Part shown: piece by piece, positions 38,237-64,000 of the stretch
Layout: each line of letters begins with the position of its first letter
Numbering within the stretch: the stretch's first letter is position 1
Assembly (NCBI GenBank): GCA_947034885.2
Contig: OX344752.2
Coordinates: forward strand, 2,666,001 to 2,730,000
Direction of reading: 5' to 3'
DNA length: 64,000 bases
Source: Thuidium tamariscinum
Taxonomy: Eukaryota; Streptophyta; Bryopsida; Hypnales; Thuidiaceae
Notes under the pieces: model-generated
Told to the model about the DNA's origin: nothing
Databases searched by the model: none
The model's input: the letters and a program-made list of their open reading frames with translations, nothing else
Translations under genes and position numbers: made by a program

Positions 38237-39590
38237 ATGGAGGGGTACGATCAACACTTAACGAAGTCCGTGACTACACTCGTTCTTACTTTGTTGCTGC
38301 TCGCCAAGAACGTCGATGGAAGATTTCACATAAGAAATGGCCAAAACTGGCGCAAAGCTCACGCAACTTTCTATGGGGGTGCTGATGCGTCAGGAACTAT
38401 GGGTACCACATCTTGTCCCTTGAACAGTTCACAGACAACTATCTAACCTGCTAATTGGAATTTTAAGTGTTCATTTCTCGAAACTGATTTTTTCTTCTAT
38501 TAATTAGAGTCGATGACCACGTAATCGCAACTTGCAAGTAAAATGTTTGTTTACTTCGAAGAGAGAGACATCTGGAGATGATCTATAATCATAATAACGA
38601 AGTAAGAATCCCCGACCACCTGCTCACCTGTGGCACTTCAACAAGAGCCACTAGCTATATCGAATGCGGATGTGGTTTGACATGCAGGTCGGTGGATTCT
38701 AATCAAGTCCTTTAAATAAATATTGTGCAGGCGGTGCTTGCGGTTACGGAAACCTCCACAGCACGGGCTATGGAGTTGATTCGACTGCCTTGAGCACAGC
38801 ACTCTTTAACAAAGGGGCAAAATGCGGAGCTTGCTTTGCACTCCAATGCTACCGTTCGAAATGGTGTCTTCCAGGTACACCTGTAATTACCGTCACAGCC
38901 ACGAACTTCTGCCCTCCCAACCGTGAGGGTGACGGCACCCCAGGGTGGTGCAATCCACCGTTGCGACATTTCGATCTTGCACAGCCTAGCTTCACCAAAC
39001 TTGCCAAGTACAGAGCAGGCATCGTCCCCGTTCTCTTCAGAAGGTGAGCTTTATGGTGATATTAAGACAGATTTATGGATTGTGTTTTCCGGCCTAGGCG
39101 AATGTATATCAATTCTAACGAAGTTTCATCAATAGGTGGCTCTCTGCAGACGGTAACGTTGCAGAAACAATCTTTGTCAAGAAATTTATCACGAGAATTG
39201 CACACATTGATCAAGTTAGTAGCTTGCATACAGTACTTCAAGCTTCTCACCGACAATCGTTGTACTGTGTCCTTCAGAGTACCATGCCAGAAGAAAGGTG
39301 GCATCAGATTCACCATCAATGGGAATAAGTACTTCAATCTCATCCTGGTTCACAACGTTGGCGGTAAAGGCGATGTTCTCGCAGTTGACATAATGGGATC
39401 CAACACCAAATGGCAGCCCATGCATCGAAATTGGGGACAGAACTGGCAGACAAACTCATTATTGGTTGGCCAGGCACTCTCCTTCCGAGTGACGACCAGC
39501 GATGGTGTCACTGTGACCTCTTTGAATGCCGCTCCGGCTGAGTGGCACTTTGGCCAGACCTTCGAGGGAGCTCAGTTTAACAGCAACTAA
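38237..39590 (+). CDS. Alpha-expansin
   Basis: Secreted wall-loosening protein that disrupts cellulose-hemicellulose contacts without hydrolysis. Three exons, 38237-38402, 38731-39043 and 39278-39590, join in frame through GT-AG introns to give 263 residues; alpha-expansins are usually about 250-260. An N-terminal hydrophobic segment (residues 11-28) is a signal peptide. The double-psi beta-barrel domain shows [36 protein letters not shown] and the HFDLAQP motif with the conserved Asp. The [12 protein letters not shown] hinge leads to the C-terminal CBM63-type domain ([33 protein letters not shown]). The GACGYGNL insertion and spacing are alpha-type rather than beta-type. The start is the first ATG of the signal-peptide exon. 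All key residues look intact. Confidence 0.95.
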
Positions 39591-40947: not shown

Positions 40948-43900
40948 TTAGTTGTCTTTGCGAACAGGTATATTAGCTTGCAAAGGGGTCGAGAGAGTCC
41001 AACCAGAAGGATACGCAAATCCCTTGGGCGCCTCCAGGTGCAGGTGCCACACCATCACCTTTAGGCACCCCGGCGGTCGTCCTTCCATGTGGCTCTCATC
41101 TGGAACCAGCTGCTCTATGAACGTGGTCTCCTGCACAAGCCACGGGAGCTTCAGAATTTACTGATTCTGCCAGAGTAGCTAAAACGAAGACCATGTGAAT
41201 TCTGCTGCGCAAATGCAGAAACTCGTCTCCAAGTGACTACAAAAGAAATATGGAGACTTAAAAGAGTTGAATTATTGCATGATCGATATATCAAGTACCC
41301 ATCTCACTCTCGTAGCTCTGAAAAAATTACCAAACAGTAGCCACCAAGCTTCAGGACCATGTTTCGCAATTGTGCACTTATAAACTATGAAACATGTTGG
41401 CCAAAGTGGCTGCTTCTATAGGAATCGAAATAAATCATCAAGAAAGGAAACAAAATATCCCAATAGAAAGCTTATCTTCATTTTTGAATGATATTCTTTG
41501 AAAGTTACTAGAAGGGCGAGACTCGCATGCCGCAATAGGAAGTGATTTTAAGAGAAATATTTCTATTGGGACAAAACTCTCAACATGCGTGCTAGTATCT
41601 CTGACGAGAATTTGGAGCTCAGAATTGTACAAGGTTCAAAAAGGGAAGAAGGAAGAGACCTTTGCAAACTCTGACCCCATATTTAGTTGACATTCTATTG
41701 TAGAGTTGCCTTAGGAGTTGAAAGGGAGAATGTATAAGGACCGTCTCAACGATGAACTGGACTGACCTGGAAACCTTCCTTGACGGTGTCCAGCTGACGG
41801 ATGGGCTCCAAGGTGGGGCGTTTCCACCTGCGAGGGTCCCATAAGATGGTGGAGTTGAAGGCAAAGCCAGACATGTCCACATGAAACCGTCGCAGACGCT
41901 TGCTCTTCGCATTGGTGTGCCACCCGATCACTTTCTCGTCTGTGCACACTGGACCTTCCAGGACGGCCCTCGACTTGCCTGGTGCCAGCATTCCCACCAA
42001 CCAAGTGCCAAAGCGCCTGCCCAAACACACAGGATCAGTACATCGTTTATTCTATTCAAGGTATGTTCGCACTTGGTGTTAAAAATAGTCATCAAAATGA
42101 ATTCACGTGCACATGTGGACTAGATTAACTTTTTTATCACACAGCGCCTAACCAAGCGCGAGCATACCATCGGATGACATGTAAGTGTGGTACCATCTGA
42201 ATTCTTTTATTTCACATTATGATCAATCAAATGGGTCACGACAATGAATCCTAGATTAACCAAAGTCTTTTCAAAGCAGTTCGAAGTAGCAGTGAATACC
42301 AGCAAGCGAAAGGAGGGAGAAGAGATGGAACCGAACTTGACGTGGCGTATCTGCTGAAAGAGCTCCAGTGTATACACGTTGTCATCGTCGGCGAAGTAGA
42401 CGATGCCATCCAACTGATGCTGTTCAATGTGGGCCAAGGCGGTGTTGCGCTGGTAAGTCCCCCGGTCCTTCACATTGGTGAGGTTCCGGTCGCACACCAA
42501 GTGGCGGTACATGAGCCCCGTTTCCCGCAACAGGGCCGCCGTTTCCAGCGACTGCGACTGCATCTCCACCACCAGCCACAGCAGCGGAGGAGGCACCAGC
42601 TTCAGCGTGTGCGCCAAGCGCGTCAGGTAGTACGCCTTGAAGGGCCGCGTGTAGGTGGGCGTCACCACGATGAGCAGCTTCTGAGGCTCCAAAGGCATCT
42701 CCACATCCTCACCACCTGCTAGAATCATATTTCCCACAGCGTTACCTATCCACTCCCGTCATCCTTTAAAACCACGACGTCGGGTCTAAAAAGCTGCGCT
42801 TTCACTGACTTTCCAACAAGGCATCACTCGAAATTTTTGCTTAAGAAACGGACATAAAATCTCAATTCGCAATTATGAGTGCGACTATTGAGTACTCATA
42901 ATTTCAAATTGAGATTCAATACTTAACCAAAAGTTTTGAGCGACAACTTGTAGGAAAGCCACTAAAACCGCAATTCTATTGGGTTATAATACACCTCCTG
43001 ACTCAAAGTATTGAGATCACAGCAAGCAATTGAAGTAGCAGGCGAATATGATAGCAGTCTACACATAAAGCCAGCAAGCAGTTCTGGGTTAAACCGTGCA
43101 AGTGTTAGATTGCAGGAAAGCTAAAAACAATGCGAGTCTAGATAGCAAGACAATACTTGCAGCTTTTATGCCTGAACTTCCAGTTTAAGCTATGGCATTG
43201 AGTTGGCATTAACTGCTAGTGGACTTCACTTGGATTGAGCATAGCAAAACAGAATCCACAAAAAGAGGTAGAGCTAGCCACATGCGCTTTCAGTGAAAGG
43301 TCTACGTCCATGTGCACGAATATGAAGTTTTATATATATGCAAATGCAACTCTTGCTAAGAAAATCTGTAGCACGTGAAAAACAAGTTGTCCGATGCACT
43401 GGAAATTCGAGGGCCAAGGTTTCGACGGACAGCGTAAGTGGGTCACCAGAGCTCGCGGTTTTCATACCTCGAGTTCCACTTAAAGCGATGGCATGAAGTT
43501 CAAACTTGTTCCTTCCTATGGACTTGTCTTGGATTGAGCATAGCTAAACCGAATCCACAACTAGGTGGAGCTAGTCAGGTGCATTTCCAGTGAAAGAGCT
43601 ATGTACATCAGTATGAAGATGCGACTCTTGCAAGGAATTCTATAGCATTTGCACGAGAAGTTAGAAGCACTGGAAATTTCGAGGCTCAAAGTTCCGACGG
43701 ACAGCATAGGCTAGAAATCTAAGCTCGCGACTATGAGCCTGGAGTTTCGGTTTAAGCATTGGCATGAAGTTCAGACATACTTCCCGAGGACTTCTCTAGG
43801 ACTGAGCCTAGCTAAACGGAATCCACAACTACGTAGAGCTGGCCGGGTGCATTTTCAGTGAAAGGGCTACGTACATCAGTACAAGTGAACGAAGATGCAA

Positions 43901-45835: not shown

Positions 45836-47128
45836 ATGGTGATGGCCGTGGCTATGGCACATTCAGCAGCTGCTACTCTTGGTTCCTCGTTCATCGCCGC
45901 TCGCACTTCCTCCGCTCCGGAATTGCAACTTCGGATATCCGGAATCCCCAGATGTCTTCCTGTCTACGCCGCGCAATTGCAAGGTGAGTGCTGTTACACC
46001 CAAACATCTTTGTAATGACCTTCTCTGAAATGACATTCGTGAAGATTATGCACACTTGCCACTCTAGCATTGAGTGTAGCAGACTTGCCACGCATTCAAA
46101 CTATGGAATAGTGAAAAAGGGTTGAGTGCATTGTGGTTTTTGTTAGTTTCTTTGGAATTCTTATTTGTGAACCAAGCTCCTCGCCACTAGGGTTGTACAT
46201 ACTTAATATTTCTGTGAATGCGGTGCGTGATCGTGCGTAACCAATGCTGCTGTTCGTTTTGGCTATGTGAGATTCTGGAAATCGCTTGCATTTGGTTCTG
46301 CGGCTAATGTTTCTCTTCTTCTGCCTCTCTCTCCGGTTGTCTACCAATTCGTCCATCTTCTCTCACTGTCCTTTTAGTGCTTCTGCCTCTCTCTCAATGT
46401 TGTGATCTCGTGACACTTTTTTTGCATCTTCTTCTGTCTCCTCTTTCTTGTTGTCTATGGCCTTCCATGACTCCACATTCCCTTACTGCGCTCTCAACTC
46501 TTCACTGTGAAGCGAGTGAGTTCACGCCAAGAGTGTTGCGATCTCGTAAATCTTTTAAAATTTTTACCTTCTTTTTTGGTGGGAAATATGGACATGAGGA
46601 TTTCAATTGTTGTTTCAAAATTTGTCTCCGTTAAATTGACAAAGGTATATCAGTTGGTCGTGGAGTTGGATTGTTGTTTCAAAAGAAGTCGCCATGAAAT
46701 GTGACTAAGGTGTATCAGTGGTTGTGGACTTGGATTATTGTTTCGCAAGATCTCTCCATTAGATTGACAAAGATGCCTCAGTGGTTGCAGCGAAGACTCC
46801 GATTACGCTCCACATCGGGGAAACTTCACTCACCATCCCCTTTTCTCTAGACTCGGCTAAAGGGCTGAGCTCCGCCATCACGGGGCTGTTGACGACGTTC
46901 AAGGAGAAGGAGAAAGCCGCTCGGCCTAAGCGGTGGGACAACATGGAGTATCGCCAGACGGAAGAGGGTGTCTTCTTCGAGGTCTTCTGCAACCCGAACG
47001 CGCATGCGACGGCGTTTCAGGCCAAGTATTTGGTCACCATCGACGACGCCAAGCTGCGCATTGCGTCGGAAGGGCAGCTCAGTGCTCTCAAATCCGACAT
47101 CGACCAATACATCGAGTCGCAAATCTGA
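45836..47128 (+). CDS. Plastid-targeted protein of unknown function
   Basis: Exon 1, 45836-45983 (MVMAVAMAHSAAATLGSSFI...), is rich in Ser/Ala/Arg and poor in acids, as in a chloroplast transit peptide. It ends at GTGAGT. Exon 2, 46782-47128, continues in frame (VVAAKTPITLHIGETSLTIP) to a TGA stop, giving 164 residues. The mature part, about 115 residues, contains IPFSLDSAKGLSSAI, a basic KEKEKAARPKRWDN stretch, EGVFFEVFCNPN and a C-terminal helix-like SALKSDIDQYIESQI. No membrane segment or enzyme motif seen. An in-frame ATG lies 114 bases upstream at 45722, but the later ATG gives a typical transit peptide. The acceptor before 46782 (CCTCAG) has a poor pyrimidine tract, so that junction is the least certain point. 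I do not recognise the family. Confidence 0.72.
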
Positions 47129-48175: not shown

Positions 48176-51100
48176 CTACAGTAGGTCAGACTCCTTTGAA
48201 ATTTCATAGACCCATCCTTCATGCGCGCCTCCTGCTAGCGACTTTCTGGTTCCCGGAACCTCTGCAATATGCATCTTCAGTCTAAGAACTTCAGCATTCA
48301 CTGCGAAGTCATTACTGCACAGGGCGAAAGGGTTCAGTGTTAGAATTGACTTTCGGGACTAGATACATGCATGCAGGTAGTGGTAACATTAAGTGCCCAA
48401 CTGGCCCAAAGGGACGGCTTCTTATCTCTAGCAGTTGAATTTAACAATGGAGGAAGCTTCAAGGTAAAAAAAGGTACCAATAGAAAGTAGAATTCGTATT
48501 TTGAATGACAGAATTTGATTTGAAAGTAAGTATTATCAACTATTAGCTTCCAAACTAGAAGCTTGGGTATTTGGGGGATAAATAAATTGCGACTCAAGAA
48601 GAGCAAATTCTGGTTAAATCATGTCATCAATATGAACTGTCCAGGGGCTTCTACTTGAACAGATGAATAACAAACCCCAGATATGGTTGGTATTAGACCT
48701 CTTGAACCTTGAAACATAGCCTAGAATGAACTTGCAGGCTCCTGCAGGGTGAAGCTCTATGAGGGCCTTCACGGTAGCAAACAGGGGTTTCACAGCACTT
48801 TGATGGTAACGTGGATCCAGTTGGTCAAGGAGAAATACTAGAAGCGGGTCCACTGCTACCAAAATCCACTTTTATTCTACGAACATTCAGCGAAGCTCAA
48901 ACAATGAAAAGCAGAATGCTTGCAAAAGTCAAATAACAGTAGCAAAGAAAGAATAAGAATACCTAAGGAAAACATTATTATTCATTTCGTGTAGCCTATA
49001 AACACATGTATACGCAAGAAGTGATTTTGCTTTCCATTTGAACCCAAAGTTCGGCTCAAACAGAATCTGAAAAGGTGAAGAATTTGATGGGAGGATATAT
49101 ATGTCAGCACCCAAGATGAGGTCAAAACCGTCAGGGTAGCTGTCCTTGATGTGTCGCAAATGATCATCATTGCCCCAGTCAAGCTCCTCGCAATCCAACT
49201 CTACAAAAACAGATAACAGATGAGGGGATACTGGCCGCTAAGCATGTTCAAATAAAAAGAGGTCATAACATTAAGAGCTCCGTCAAGTATCATGCTCACA
49301 TGGGGTACGGAGTAAAAATGTTGCATTTAGCTGAAGGATTCTAATAAAAATAAAAATAAAATGCCAATTGTTTTCAAAAATCTAGGCATGATCCATAAGA
49401 TCGTACTTGACTGTAAAGTCTCGTCCTGCAACTCCACATTTCTCTTCATGACCTGCATAGAAGCACCGTTGTTTCTTCAGATACCAGTTCTGGAGCTTGA
49501 ATCAAGTTTTAAAACTCTGATTTGATTTTACCGGTATTCAAGTAGCTACAGACGAGGGACACGTGATGACCTAAGTCATTAATCACCACTTTGATAAACA
49601 ACTGTTAACCAGTGAAGATTCTTAACATGATATGAGTACGGCGAGTTGAAAACAAGACAACACTTATATTGAGGGTGAAGGTTTAGAGCATGCGTAGAGT
49701 GGCATGCCTTTAATACGGTAGTGTTGTGATCAGTCATGACCACATGACGACAATACTGGGCACATAGCAAACCGTTGAGACCTACAACCACCTCCCACAA
49801 TGTTGATTCCTAATCCGTATCTTCCACACATACTTTAACTTCGTAAAACGATTGGAAGAGGATTCTTCAAATTTTTTAACAACAAATCGAACTATCCCAG
49901 GGGTAAACTATGACAACTGGAGCAGTCTTATTCATTCACAGTGGACACTCTCATCCTAATTGGGGAGCACTATAAAGATAGAGACCTAGATGCTTCGCAA
50001 TCTCTCTAGAAACTCGTTAGGGAAGATTTCTTACCAACGCCTGATCCAAGTTCAATCACAGAGCGACCATCAAGAAGATGCGAGTGATTCACTAGATAGT
50101 CATTCAGAATTCCAGCTCCTGGCCAAACTAATTGCCCTGTGAGATCATAATCAGCTGCAACCAAGGCCCAAACCCACACAGTGTCAAGACAGTTAGACCA
50201 CAAGACATCCCACAGTACTTGAAGAAATATTGATATCTAGAAACATGCAGAAGTTGTAATCAGCACCATCGTAACCAGACCTTGTTTCTTCTGTAACACA
50301 TTGCATGTGCAGTGAGAGAAACAATAAAGTTCAACAATAGGAATTCCCCAAATGCCTATTAAGAAAACACACGAGGCTCAATTTGGGCTTGGTACTGTAG
50401 AGATTAACCCATATAAAAAGGTGCACCTAACCATACTTAGTAGCTTCGTTAAGCTGTACTGAAAAAGACTCTAGATGGAGAAGTACACTTACTAGAAGAA
50501 CACTGAAGGCACAACACTTTGATCGTATGAGGGCCAACAATGAATTCCTTTTCAAGATATCTGCAATAACCATCAACAAAACAATTACTCAGCACATAGC
50601 ATATACTTTACAATACATGAAAGTCTAAGAGGAGAAAGAGTATTAAATGCATAGAACAAAAGAAAGAGGTACCTCATTGCAACACATACCCAAATGAAAC
50701 ACTCTAAATTCTTGTATGTTGAATTCATACTGATAATGTACACCAGTTTACATCAGAATCCAATTTGGTTTTAGGAAATCTACCAATGAAACTTAAACCC
50801 TTCTAACTTTTGTATCCAATATCCAAATTTAGCATACTTTGGTGCATAAAAACCCTCATACAATTGCTAACAACATCCAATAACAAATTTGTCAGTCAAA
50901 TTCTAGTCACTACAGCGTCGCTCTCACGTGTAATTACCTGAAAAAAAAAACTCTTTCTTTCACGACATCACGGCAACCAAACAAGGCATGAAAATAAATG
51001 CCCTCTTAGGGTTTAAGCTTCTGGGAGTAAAAAAAAAAATCTAATCAGACTTCTAATTTGCAAATCGCAACAAGATTAACAAAGCTTAACCAACAAGAAT

Positions 51101-51519
51101 AATCAATCAATCTCATCAGAAATTGAAACCCCCTCAAAATCCCAATAATCCATACGAGCTCACTACTGTACCGAATTCATAACCTCACAAGCCACCACCG
51201 AAACCCACGAATCAATCCCATCACCAAAGCCCAACTCAGGAGAAGTGTGACAAATTTTAAATACAAAAAAAAACTGAATGCCGGAGTAATTGAAACTAAA
51301 TAGTATTTCAATCTGGATACACGAAGCGGAACTTCAATTTACAGAATGGGCGACGATCCACAGGATCCCAAAGCTACGAGAAGTCGATGAATGTGGAAAT
51401 TTAATGAATGGACAATGTGAAATGGAGAATTACGCTTCGTCAACAAAAAATGAGGCACCGAAGAAGGTGTCGTCGTCGCTGTCTTCGGGCTTCGAGGGTG
51501 CGGCTTCCTTCGACGCCAT
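48176..51519 (-). CDS. METTL21-type S-adenosylmethionine-dependent protein methyltransferase
   Basis: Seven-beta-strand methyltransferase resembling plant METTL21-like proteins; the likely substrate is a lysine on a protein (inference from family). Eight exons on the minus strand: 51519-51434, 50560-50493, 50154-50035, 49781-49708, 49452-49407, 49200-49099, 48810-48699, 48314-48176. They total 747 nt, 248 residues, with every phase matching. Start MASKEAAPSKPEDSDDD. Motifs: GQLVWPGAGILNDYL, SAM-binding ELGSGVG (86-92), VVMTDHN (105-111), post-motif DLILGADI (158-165), CYHQSAVKPLF, CKFILGYVSR, and C-terminal VPGTRK...GGAHEGWVYEI. Intron 4 (49707-49453) needs a GC donor and intron 6 (49098-48811) an AT-AC pair; both placements restore family-conserved residues. 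No signal or membrane segment, so cytosolic or nuclear. Confidence 0.88.
48811..49098 (-). other. Predicted U12-type AT-AC intron (288 bp)
   Basis: Read on the minus strand, the donor is ATATCCTCC, the acceptor ends GATCCAC, and a U12-like branch site TCCTTGAC lies with its A about 14 bases before the acceptor. No GT-AG pair in this interval joins DLILGADI to the downstream SAVKPLF block in frame. The AT-AC pair gives GADI-CYHQSAV, which aligns with the plant family as I remember it. Confidence 0.75.
49453..49707 (-). other. Predicted GC-AG intron (255 bp)
   Basis: The exon ends ...ACCGTATTAAAG and the intron starts GCATGC; the acceptor is TATGCAG. Using GC keeps the conserved Val-Leu-Lys before VMKRN. 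The nearest GT (GTATTA, nine bases earlier) would delete those three residues while staying in frame. Confidence 0.6.
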
Positions 51520-61719: not shown

Positions 61720-64000
61720 CACTACAAGGAAACTGTGTCCTTTGTGACAAGTATTTGATAGAACTCTGTCGAAATCAACAAAGGAGCATTTCAAATTGGG
61801 GGTTCCTGTAGGTTCGGTTACTGTGACCTGTTTCTGTCAATTTCTAGTCAATGCAGTGAAAGTGATTGGAACTAGAAGCCAACGTGGCTACCGAATGAAA
61901 CTGGAGAGCTCATATATCTCTTTTCATTCATCCAGCACTCCATACCATCCTGCCCGTGACCCACTGGCACTATTATTTGAACAATTTCACCAAAGTTTCC
62001 TTATGCATCAAGGATAATTGTAAATTACTCATTCCTACATGCACATCGTCCACAATGCATATCTGGACGCACGAAGCTCACGGCTATTGCACCGAAACTT
62101 AAATTCAATTTAAATAAATAAGACAAGGCATGCCAAACAGTAGGATTTTTTTCATCACACTCTCTCAGCTAATTCAAATCCCTCCAAAGGCTGATTAAGC
62201 TCCTCTTAATGCATGTTCCTGAATCTGCTTAGCATTTACTACACAATGGCGTAAAACTTGCACAAAGTGCACACAAGTAAGCCATTTGCCAAAATTACAG
62301 ATGACCATGCTTCATCGTTATCCTGATCATTAAAACTGATGTATCCTTCCTAGTGCACAGCATGAACCCATTACACATGATAATGAATTCTACAATATCT
62401 ACCTCCATTGTATTACTGAAAAGACAGCCTACGAATTCCTTTTTGCAGAAACGCTTTACCCGTGAATGGGTTCCTCCCTTTATTCTAATCACAACAGCTG
62501 TCACTAGCTACATCCTTCAATTTTGGTCCGCCCACCTCACTACTAAATTACAGACATGGTAAAACACTATTCTACTTGATCGAATTCATGCAACAGGACT
62601 CCATGATGCCCACAGAACCCCCTGGTCTCCCCCAATGAACCCGACTTCTTCAAATGAAAACTGCTGCAAGCATGCATCTCACGTTGGAACTCAATATCTT
62701 CGACCCTGCACAGATACACGTACAACTTCACTGGGTGCTGCTCTAATATTGTCCTCCATCTAGATTCAATGAAACAAACCCATGCTATACAGAAGCACTT
62801 GTGGCCACCTACAAAATATTTTGACACCCTTCGACCATCCTCTTACTTTCAATCAGATGCCCACTTATAGATAAGTGCACAGTCGCTGCCATGCTATGAG
62901 AATGGAAAAAACCCTGGACACGGCATAAGTCAAAACGACGACCAAAAAAACGCCAATAGAACTGACAGTCAATCTACTTTTACGGTACACAATCCTCTGG
63001 TACTAATTACAAAAGAAATTCATACCTGCAAACAATGCGTCGTTGCTCCCAACAGTTCACCACGTTCTCCAACTCTAAAACTTCACTGATTTTATCCATA
63101 TAAAGACGATTCAAAGGTAAATCTACTGATCCATTTCATTGAAACAAGCACTTCTGACTTACCTAAACACTACTGCTGCTCATAGAATCTGAAGACGACG
63201 TTGACCTCCTGAAGTTGCTGCTACCGTTTCCTTCATCCTCACTAACGCTTAGATTTGGCACTCCATTCACACGGCGGCGATTCATTTCTCTGGCTCCATC
63301 CTCATCAGCTTCTCGATTTCGTCTTCGACGTCCACCTCCGACATCTAAATTTTGTTCGTACATTGCCTCCACTTCCTCCCTATCATCTTCATGAGGACTT
63401 CCACTTCCCCCTCTAGAATCATCCGCATTCCCTGGTACTGGGATTGTATCCCGTGGGTCCCTTCCACGGCGACCACGTCCCCGACGATGCATCCTCCGAC
63501 CATTTCCACCGTCGATACACCTACCTATACCACGGGTTCGACCTTGTCCTCTGCCACCCATTCCTTGTTGCCTTCTTTGTACTAGAACCTCCTGAAATAC
63601 CACTTGCTGACCTGTTTCAACTGCTGGAGTTGCCTCCTCTCCTACTTCTCTCTCAGGACGTAGTCCTTCAAAAATCTCATCATCACCCATGTCGAACATT
63701 TCGGGCTCGCTTTCTTCCTCATTGTCTGGTAAGACACGTCTACCCCTAACCTCCTTCCTAAGAACAACTTTCCAGCCTGGAGACTCCCGTGCGTCACAAT
63801 AAAAAACCTGCTCACATTGCTTCGGGAATACAAAGCTGTCACGACAAACAGTCCCGGGCCTCCTCTCATAATTTGCCAATGTGAATCCCCATTTGTCTTT
63901 TTTAATTGTAGCATTCTCCCCTACATAATTGGCCTTCACGAAGTCACAAACCATTACTACAACACAATGACGTCTGTAGTTCAGTTCTAGGATTTCTTCT
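61720..64000 (-). mobile_element. CACTA (En/Spm) transposon, 3' portion, continuing past the window
   Basis: Begins CACTACAAGGAAACTGTGTC at 61720, a canonical CACTA terminal sequence, with short motifs such as TCCTTTGTGACAAG and GAAATCAACAAAGGAGC repeated or inverted just inside (subterminal region). The minus-strand transposase tail at 63163 onward lies inside. The other terminus is outside the window, so length and intactness are unknown. The 1.4 kb between the terminus and transposase stop has small minus frames (for example 62567-62827) that could be pieces of a second element gene. Confidence 0.8.
63163..63999 (-). CDS. CACTA transposase C-terminal part with DUF4216 domain (5' end outside window)
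   Basis: The frame stays open to the window edge and reads ELNYRRHCVVVMVCDFVKAN, then KKDKWGFTLANYERR, SFVFPKQCEQVFYCDARE and GWKVVLRKEVRG. This is the DUF4216 block found at the C-terminus of plant Tnp2-type CACTA transposases (family knowledge). It is followed by an acidic stretch (NEEESEPEMFDMGDDE), a Gly/Arg-rich region (GGRGQGRTRG, RRGRGRRGRD) and a Ser-rich end, with TAG/TAA-type stop at 63163. About 279 residues are visible. An ATG at 63954 is internal, because homologous sequence continues upstream of it. No frameshift in the visible part; the catalytic domain cannot be judged from here. Confidence 0.82.
   Translation of the reverse strand, partial: EEILELNYRRHCVVVMVCDFVKANYVGENATIKKDKWGFTLANYERRPGTVCRDSFVFPKQCEQVFYCDARESPGWKVVLRKEVRGRRVLPDNEEESEPEMFDMGDDEIFEGLRPEREVGEEATPAVETGQQVVFQEVLVQRRQQGMGGRGQGRTRGIGRCIDGGNGRRMHRRGRGRRGRDPRDTIPVPGNADDSRGGSGSPHEDDREEVEAMYEQNLDVGGGRRRRNREADEDGAREMNRRRVNGVPNLSVSEDEGNGSSNFRRSTSSSDSMSSSSV

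Follow-up and report, generated by a model that had tools for sequence, protein, structure and literature searches.

U12-type introns account for less than 0.5% of all introns (PMC3584512). Their 5' splice site follows the consensus RTATCCTTT (PMC2846911) and their branch site the consensus TCCTTAAC (PMC2831892), of which the plant form is given as TTCCTTRAY in PMC5932401. Table 2 of PMC7367187 puts the AT-AC share of U12-type introns at 26% for Arabidopsis, 23% for soybean, 22% for rice, and 13% for maize, and an Arabidopsis set based on transcriptomes, which PMC5932401 quotes, puts it at 4.8%. A sequence-only reading of the DNA studied here had called AT-AC introns rare even among U12 introns; with 13-26% in these four plants (PMC7367187), this wording is too strong for annotated plant sets. 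In the CBP20 gene, each of the ten plant species compared in PMC5932401 is reported to have a U12 AT-AC intron separating exons 4 and 5. A literature search for U12 introns in connection with methyltransferases or METTL21 returned no paper that joins them; a prior listing in U12DB or in supplementary tables is possible.

The window analyzed here is a stretch of 64,000 nucleotides from Thuidium tamariscinum (contig OX344752.2, positions 2,666,001 to 2,730,000). On its minus strand, a METTL21-like gene is modeled with eight exons (51519-48176) and a product of 248 residues. All junctions of the model are predicted, and they were placed by reading frame and homology. Exon 1 (51434-51519) begins at 51519, where the reading frame suggests the start codon, exon 2 (50493-50560) is flanked by GT-AG introns on either side, and exon 3 (50035-50154) contains VIELGSGV of the SAM-binding motif. 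Exon 4 (49708-49781) and exon 5 (49407-49452) are separated by a predicted GC-AG intron (intron 4, 49453-49707, AAG/GCATGC...TGCAG/GTC). Exon 6 (49099-49200) ends in GGT GCT GAC ATA T, which encodes GADI and supplies the first base of Cys166. It is followed by intron 6 (49098-48811), a predicted U12-type AT-AC intron of 288 nt, and exon 7 (48699-48810) continues with GT TAC CAT CAA AGT GCT (Cys166-Tyr167-His-Gln-Ser-Ala). Since the Cys166 codon is split as T/GT, intron 6 is in phase 1. Exon 8 (48176-48314) includes the stop codon. Five of the introns have GT-AG ends, intron 4 has GC-AG ends, and intron 6 has AT-AC ends; therefore two of the seven introns of the model are non-GT-AG.

The 248-residue product matches Pfam PF10294 (Methyltransf_16) with a whole-protein score of 83 bits, where the gathering score is 21. 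Its nearest solved structure is METTL21A (E-value 1.1e-15, 61.1 bits), followed by 7oas, an S-adenosylmethionine-dependent methyltransferase superfamily protein, and METTL21D. By these similarities the product appears to be a METTL21-like, lysine-methyltransferase-like protein. Ten matches to the gene were found in the Thuidium genome, seven of which are pieces of the gene itself and three of which are distant paralogs; no relatives were found in the viral contigs searched. As for the neighborhood, an open frame of 121 codons without a Pfam match (46763-47125, plus strand) is convergent with the methyltransferase gene. Elsewhere in the window are an expansin gene on the plus strand (DPBB_1 in 38703-39044 and Expansin_C in 39066-39587), a glycosyltransferase family 43 exon on the minus strand (42210-42758), and a minus-strand frame (63166-63999) that extends to the window end and encodes DUF4216, a domain of plant DNA transposons. 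Searches of the window for Rfam families and tRNAs gave no hits.

Intron 6 runs ATATCCTCC...TCCTTGACCAACTGGATCCAC on the minus strand. The donor, the branch-like site, and the terminal AC noticed by the sequence-only reading are all present. The donor ATATCCTCC (49098-49090) agrees with the consensus RTATCCTTT (PMC2846911) at seven of nine positions, with ATATCCT intact and C at both +8 and +9, where it differs. It contains only three of the nine U2 donor consensus bases. The branch site TCCTTGAC (48831-48824) agrees with TCCTTRAC at all eight positions and with the plant form TTCCTTRAY (PMC5932401) at eight of nine, differing at the first T. From its A at 48825 it is 14 nt to the last base of the intron, the C at 48811 (terminal AC, 48812-48811). 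A polypyrimidine tract before the 3' end is not expected in a U12-type intron. Pyrimidines occupy 5 of the 11 positions preceding the 3' end of intron 6, and 3 to 9 in the gene's six other introns.

The position of the intron is set by homology. Removal of the AT-AC interval restores a continuous protein of 248 residues, as had been claimed, in which GADI of exon 6 and CYHQSAVKPLF of exon 7 align without a gap to METTL21A (GADIIYLEETF). The same stretch is gapless to four other solved chains among the alignments listed. The three paralogs in the same genome (29-33% identity) have no intron at this place and also align without a gap across the junction. Asp164 and Tyr167, one on each side of the junction, are invariant in four of four aligned proteins. 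Retention of intron 6 would lead to a stop 55 codons after GADIY. Among the 27 shifts for removing exactly 288 nt, the AT-AC choice is the only one with recognized ends. Removals of 291 nt add three more recognized end pairs (GT-AC, AT-AC, and AT-AG), those of 282, 285, and 294 nt add none, and there is no GT or GC start between 49107 and 49062.

Note that the motifs by themselves would not identify this intron. When donors with at most two mismatches were paired with a perfect TCCTTRAC within 2 kb, one strand had 2 pairs and the other 9, and 200 dinucleotide shuffles had 3.4 per strand on average; in the window, donor and branch motifs are thus not significant on their own. Nor did the energy of the duplex with U12 set the intron 6 branch site apart: TCCTTGAC gives -6.8, 26.6% of shuffles are as good, and the 3' end of intron 5 gives -6.9. 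It is the coincidence with the homology-defined junction that carries the case. With the intron 6 site counted in, the density of ATATCCT is 7e-5 and that of TCCTTRAC is 3.1e-5, or about 4e-4 over 13 distances. The joint chance at the homology-defined junction over 27 shifts is about 1e-6, taken as a product under assumed independence. The U12 motifs at the place that homology allows are not there by chance.

Could the interval hold instead a U2-type intron with GT-AG or GC-AG ends at another place within 49200-48699, so that the protein would be shorter or longer and the AT-AC signals fortuitous? Suitable ends are available. Enumeration of single introns of at least 50 nt in this interval that keep the frame open gave 42 GT-AG, 40 GC-AG, and 72 AT-AC removals. 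Eleven open choices (seven GT-AG and four GC-AG, with products of 278-321 residues) retain both DLILGADI and SAVKPLF, and further GT-AG or GC-AG choices retain one of them. The earlier assertion that no GT-AG choice links these two motifs in frame was thus too strong. The GT donor at 49005 has six of nine U2 consensus bases, as many as four donors of the gene itself, and the donor at 48962 has five; both are inside the range of four to seven found among the gene's own six GT/GC donors (of which the intron 7 donor is weak, with four). Since donor 49005 does as well by consensus count, the argument against it comes from homology and not from the strength of the donor. The GT-AG and GC-AG choices listed insert at least eight residues, lose GADI, or cut away part of exon 7, and the acceptor CATCAAAG falls within the codons of QSAVK. 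Ten spliced products, out of all open choices, were scored on PF10294. The proposed AT-AC product scored 83.0 bits and two other AT-AC products 76.9 and 74.4 bits, while the six GT-AG and one GC-AG products scored 64.6-66.7 bits, a loss of 16-18 bits. In the PDB comparison the single GT-AG choice tested (49110-48838) scored 43.9 bits for METTL21A against 61.1 bits for the AT-AC product, 17 bits less. With seven of the open GT-AG and GC-AG choices scored, a U2-type intron with other ends is very unlikely.

Even less probable is that the AT-AC ends are right and the major spliceosome removes the intron. According to PMC3584512, introns of other than the U12 type can have AT-AC ends too; however, the ATATCCT donor and the branch site TCCTTGAC, perfect to TCCTTRAC, are both marks of the U12 type, and so low an agreement of the donor with the U2 consensus (three of nine) argues in the same direction. 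Hardly credible is a decaying gene whose interval is no longer correctly spliced, or a faulty assembly, for which the lack of a second gene copy among the genome matches, the non-consensus +8 and +9, the GC-AG intron 4, and the weak intron 7 donor (4/9) might speak, but eight open exons without a frameshift over 248 codons and a high family score speak against it.

The minor-class machinery and a positive control were looked for in the same genome (363 Mb in 19 contigs). CBP20 was found at G000:C5:3775739-3778894 (locus L015). Its exon 4 has 34 nt and its exon 3, counted from the acceptor TTAG/ATTC, has 139 nt, the same lengths as those quoted for Arabidopsis and rice in PMC5932401. Intron 4 of CBP20 (positions 1360-1211 of the locus) is 150 nt long and runs ATATCCTCTCC...TTTCCCTTAATTTGAAATGATTGCAC, with the donor ATATCCTCT, the branch site TTTCCCTTAAT, which has an extra C, and the end GCAC; the junction product is RDEYRTDYDPGRGGYGKL. 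The CBP20 donor also has C at +8, and fails the strict form RTATCCTT (PMC2846911) there, so this departure of the methyltransferase intron is common to an intron of an established class in the same genome. Genes for U11, U12, and U6atac were all found above the cut-offs. The branch-pairing GUAAGGA is intact in both genes for U12 (92.9 and 92.4 bits). The single U11 gene (57.9 bits) has AAAAGGG near its 5' end; the intron 6 donor can form three base pairs and a wobble with U11, against six and a wobble for the consensus donor.

U6atac is unusual. Two identical full-length genes (78.6 bits; L019, 1501-1629, at G000:C1:10670793, and L020, 1501-1629, at G000:C4:28929365) and a 5'-truncated one (50.3 bits; L021, 1501-1600, at G000:C4:26741083) were found. 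The truncated copy begins at GAGAG. It apparently arose by a deletion from promoter to GAGAG at a shared AGCC, and the AGCC before its GAGAG may belong to its promoter. In both full-length loci, AGCCGAGAGA stands in place of the AAAGGAGAGA of the Rfam consensus, so that their donor-pairing box is GCCGA as compared to AAGGA in the family (A12G, A13C, G14C). Both are preceded by a TATA-like element and followed by a T run, which are features of polymerase III snRNA genes. Among 22 genome matches with at most two mismatches to the canonical GAAAGGAGAGANGGTTAGCA, there was no exact copy, and the single match with one mismatch (L036) lacks the rest of U6atac. With a second U6atac pattern these three loci came up again, together with one place that is unrelated. 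A canonical copy may be absent from the assembly, lie outside the stretches searched, or have escaped the first step of the search.

U6atac in the Thuidium lineage might have lost the canonical donor-pairing box, giving a rewired helix between U6atac and the donor of which the C at +8 would be a trace. In the pairing register G15 to C5 and G14 to C6, a U6atac with GCCGA would still face U4 and C5 and would clash with C6 and U7. With donors of the form ATATCCTC, found in both AT-AC introns examined, it would gain the pair G12-C8. The genome's U6atac pairs at +4, +5, +8, and +10 of the intron 6 donor and not at +3, +6, +7, and +9. This makes four pairs where the consensus U6atac would have five, and for the CBP20 donor the numbers are five and six; each donor thus has one pair fewer with the genome's U6atac, which counts against such a helix. 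A consensus donor would form three pairs and two wobbles with the genome's U6atac, against six and one with the consensus U6atac. Moreover, the sample of two introns is very small. When the whole genome was searched with a pattern for short AT-AC introns, the pattern matched 16 times (at 12 distinct sites) and its reversed control 5 times. The +8 letter at the 12 sites (T at 8, C at 2, G at 2) does not support a general C at +8. Several of these sites resemble one repeat family and none was judged to be an intron; hence no count of U12 introns is drawn from them. We regard the rewired helix as doubtful, though conceivable. If functional, the GCCGA form of U6atac would test how much U6atac-donor pairing minor introns need.

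Taken together, homology, intron ends, PF10294 score, snRNAs, and the CBP20 intron support the U12-type AT-AC reading as the best explanation. Intron 6 is very probably a minor-class AT-AC intron of the METTL21-like gene, judged from sequence; as a prediction it is sound, and it would be an ordinary example of a known intron class. In splicing, U11 would bind the ATATCCT donor and U12 the branch site TCCTTGAC, and U6atac would then take U11's place at the donor. Removal of the intron at its AT-AC ends would join ACATAT to GTTACC, and across the split Cys codon (phase 1) the Asp-Ile-Cys-Tyr stretch would be made. The intron fails the strict RTATCCTT rule of one published screen (PMC2846911) at +8 (C instead of T); note that this is a rule for effective splicing and not a definition of the class. 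At the upstream purine of its branch site is a G, and in plants an A at this position has been tied to better splicing (PMC5932401). Because of the C at +8 and +9 and this G, splicing is probably slower than at a consensus site. Intron 6 adds one well-supported predicted minor-class intron to a plant enzyme gene, whose expression may depend on minor-spliceosome activity. Mis-splicing here would destroy the conserved Asp-x-x-Tyr stretch, and an automatic annotation is therefore likely to get this gene wrong.

Compared with the METTL21 family (PF10294), including METTL21A (4lec), the moss protein shares the core domain and G-A-D-I-x-Y across the junction, although it is divergent in sequence. 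Compared with the CBP20 intron of the same genome, intron 6 shares an ATATCC donor, a U12-type branch site near the terminal AC, and C at +8, and each is an AT-AC intron among ordinary introns. They differ in host gene, in length (288 nt in intron 6 and 150 nt in CBP20), in branch site (TCCTTGAC and TTTCCCTTAAT), and in the distance from the branch A to the intron end, which is 14 nt in intron 6 and 16 or 17 nt in Thuidium CBP20. The extra branch-site C of the latter matches that reported for Physcomitrella CBP20 in PMC5932401. The CBP20 AT-AC intron is of established class, and intron 6 is a predicted member.
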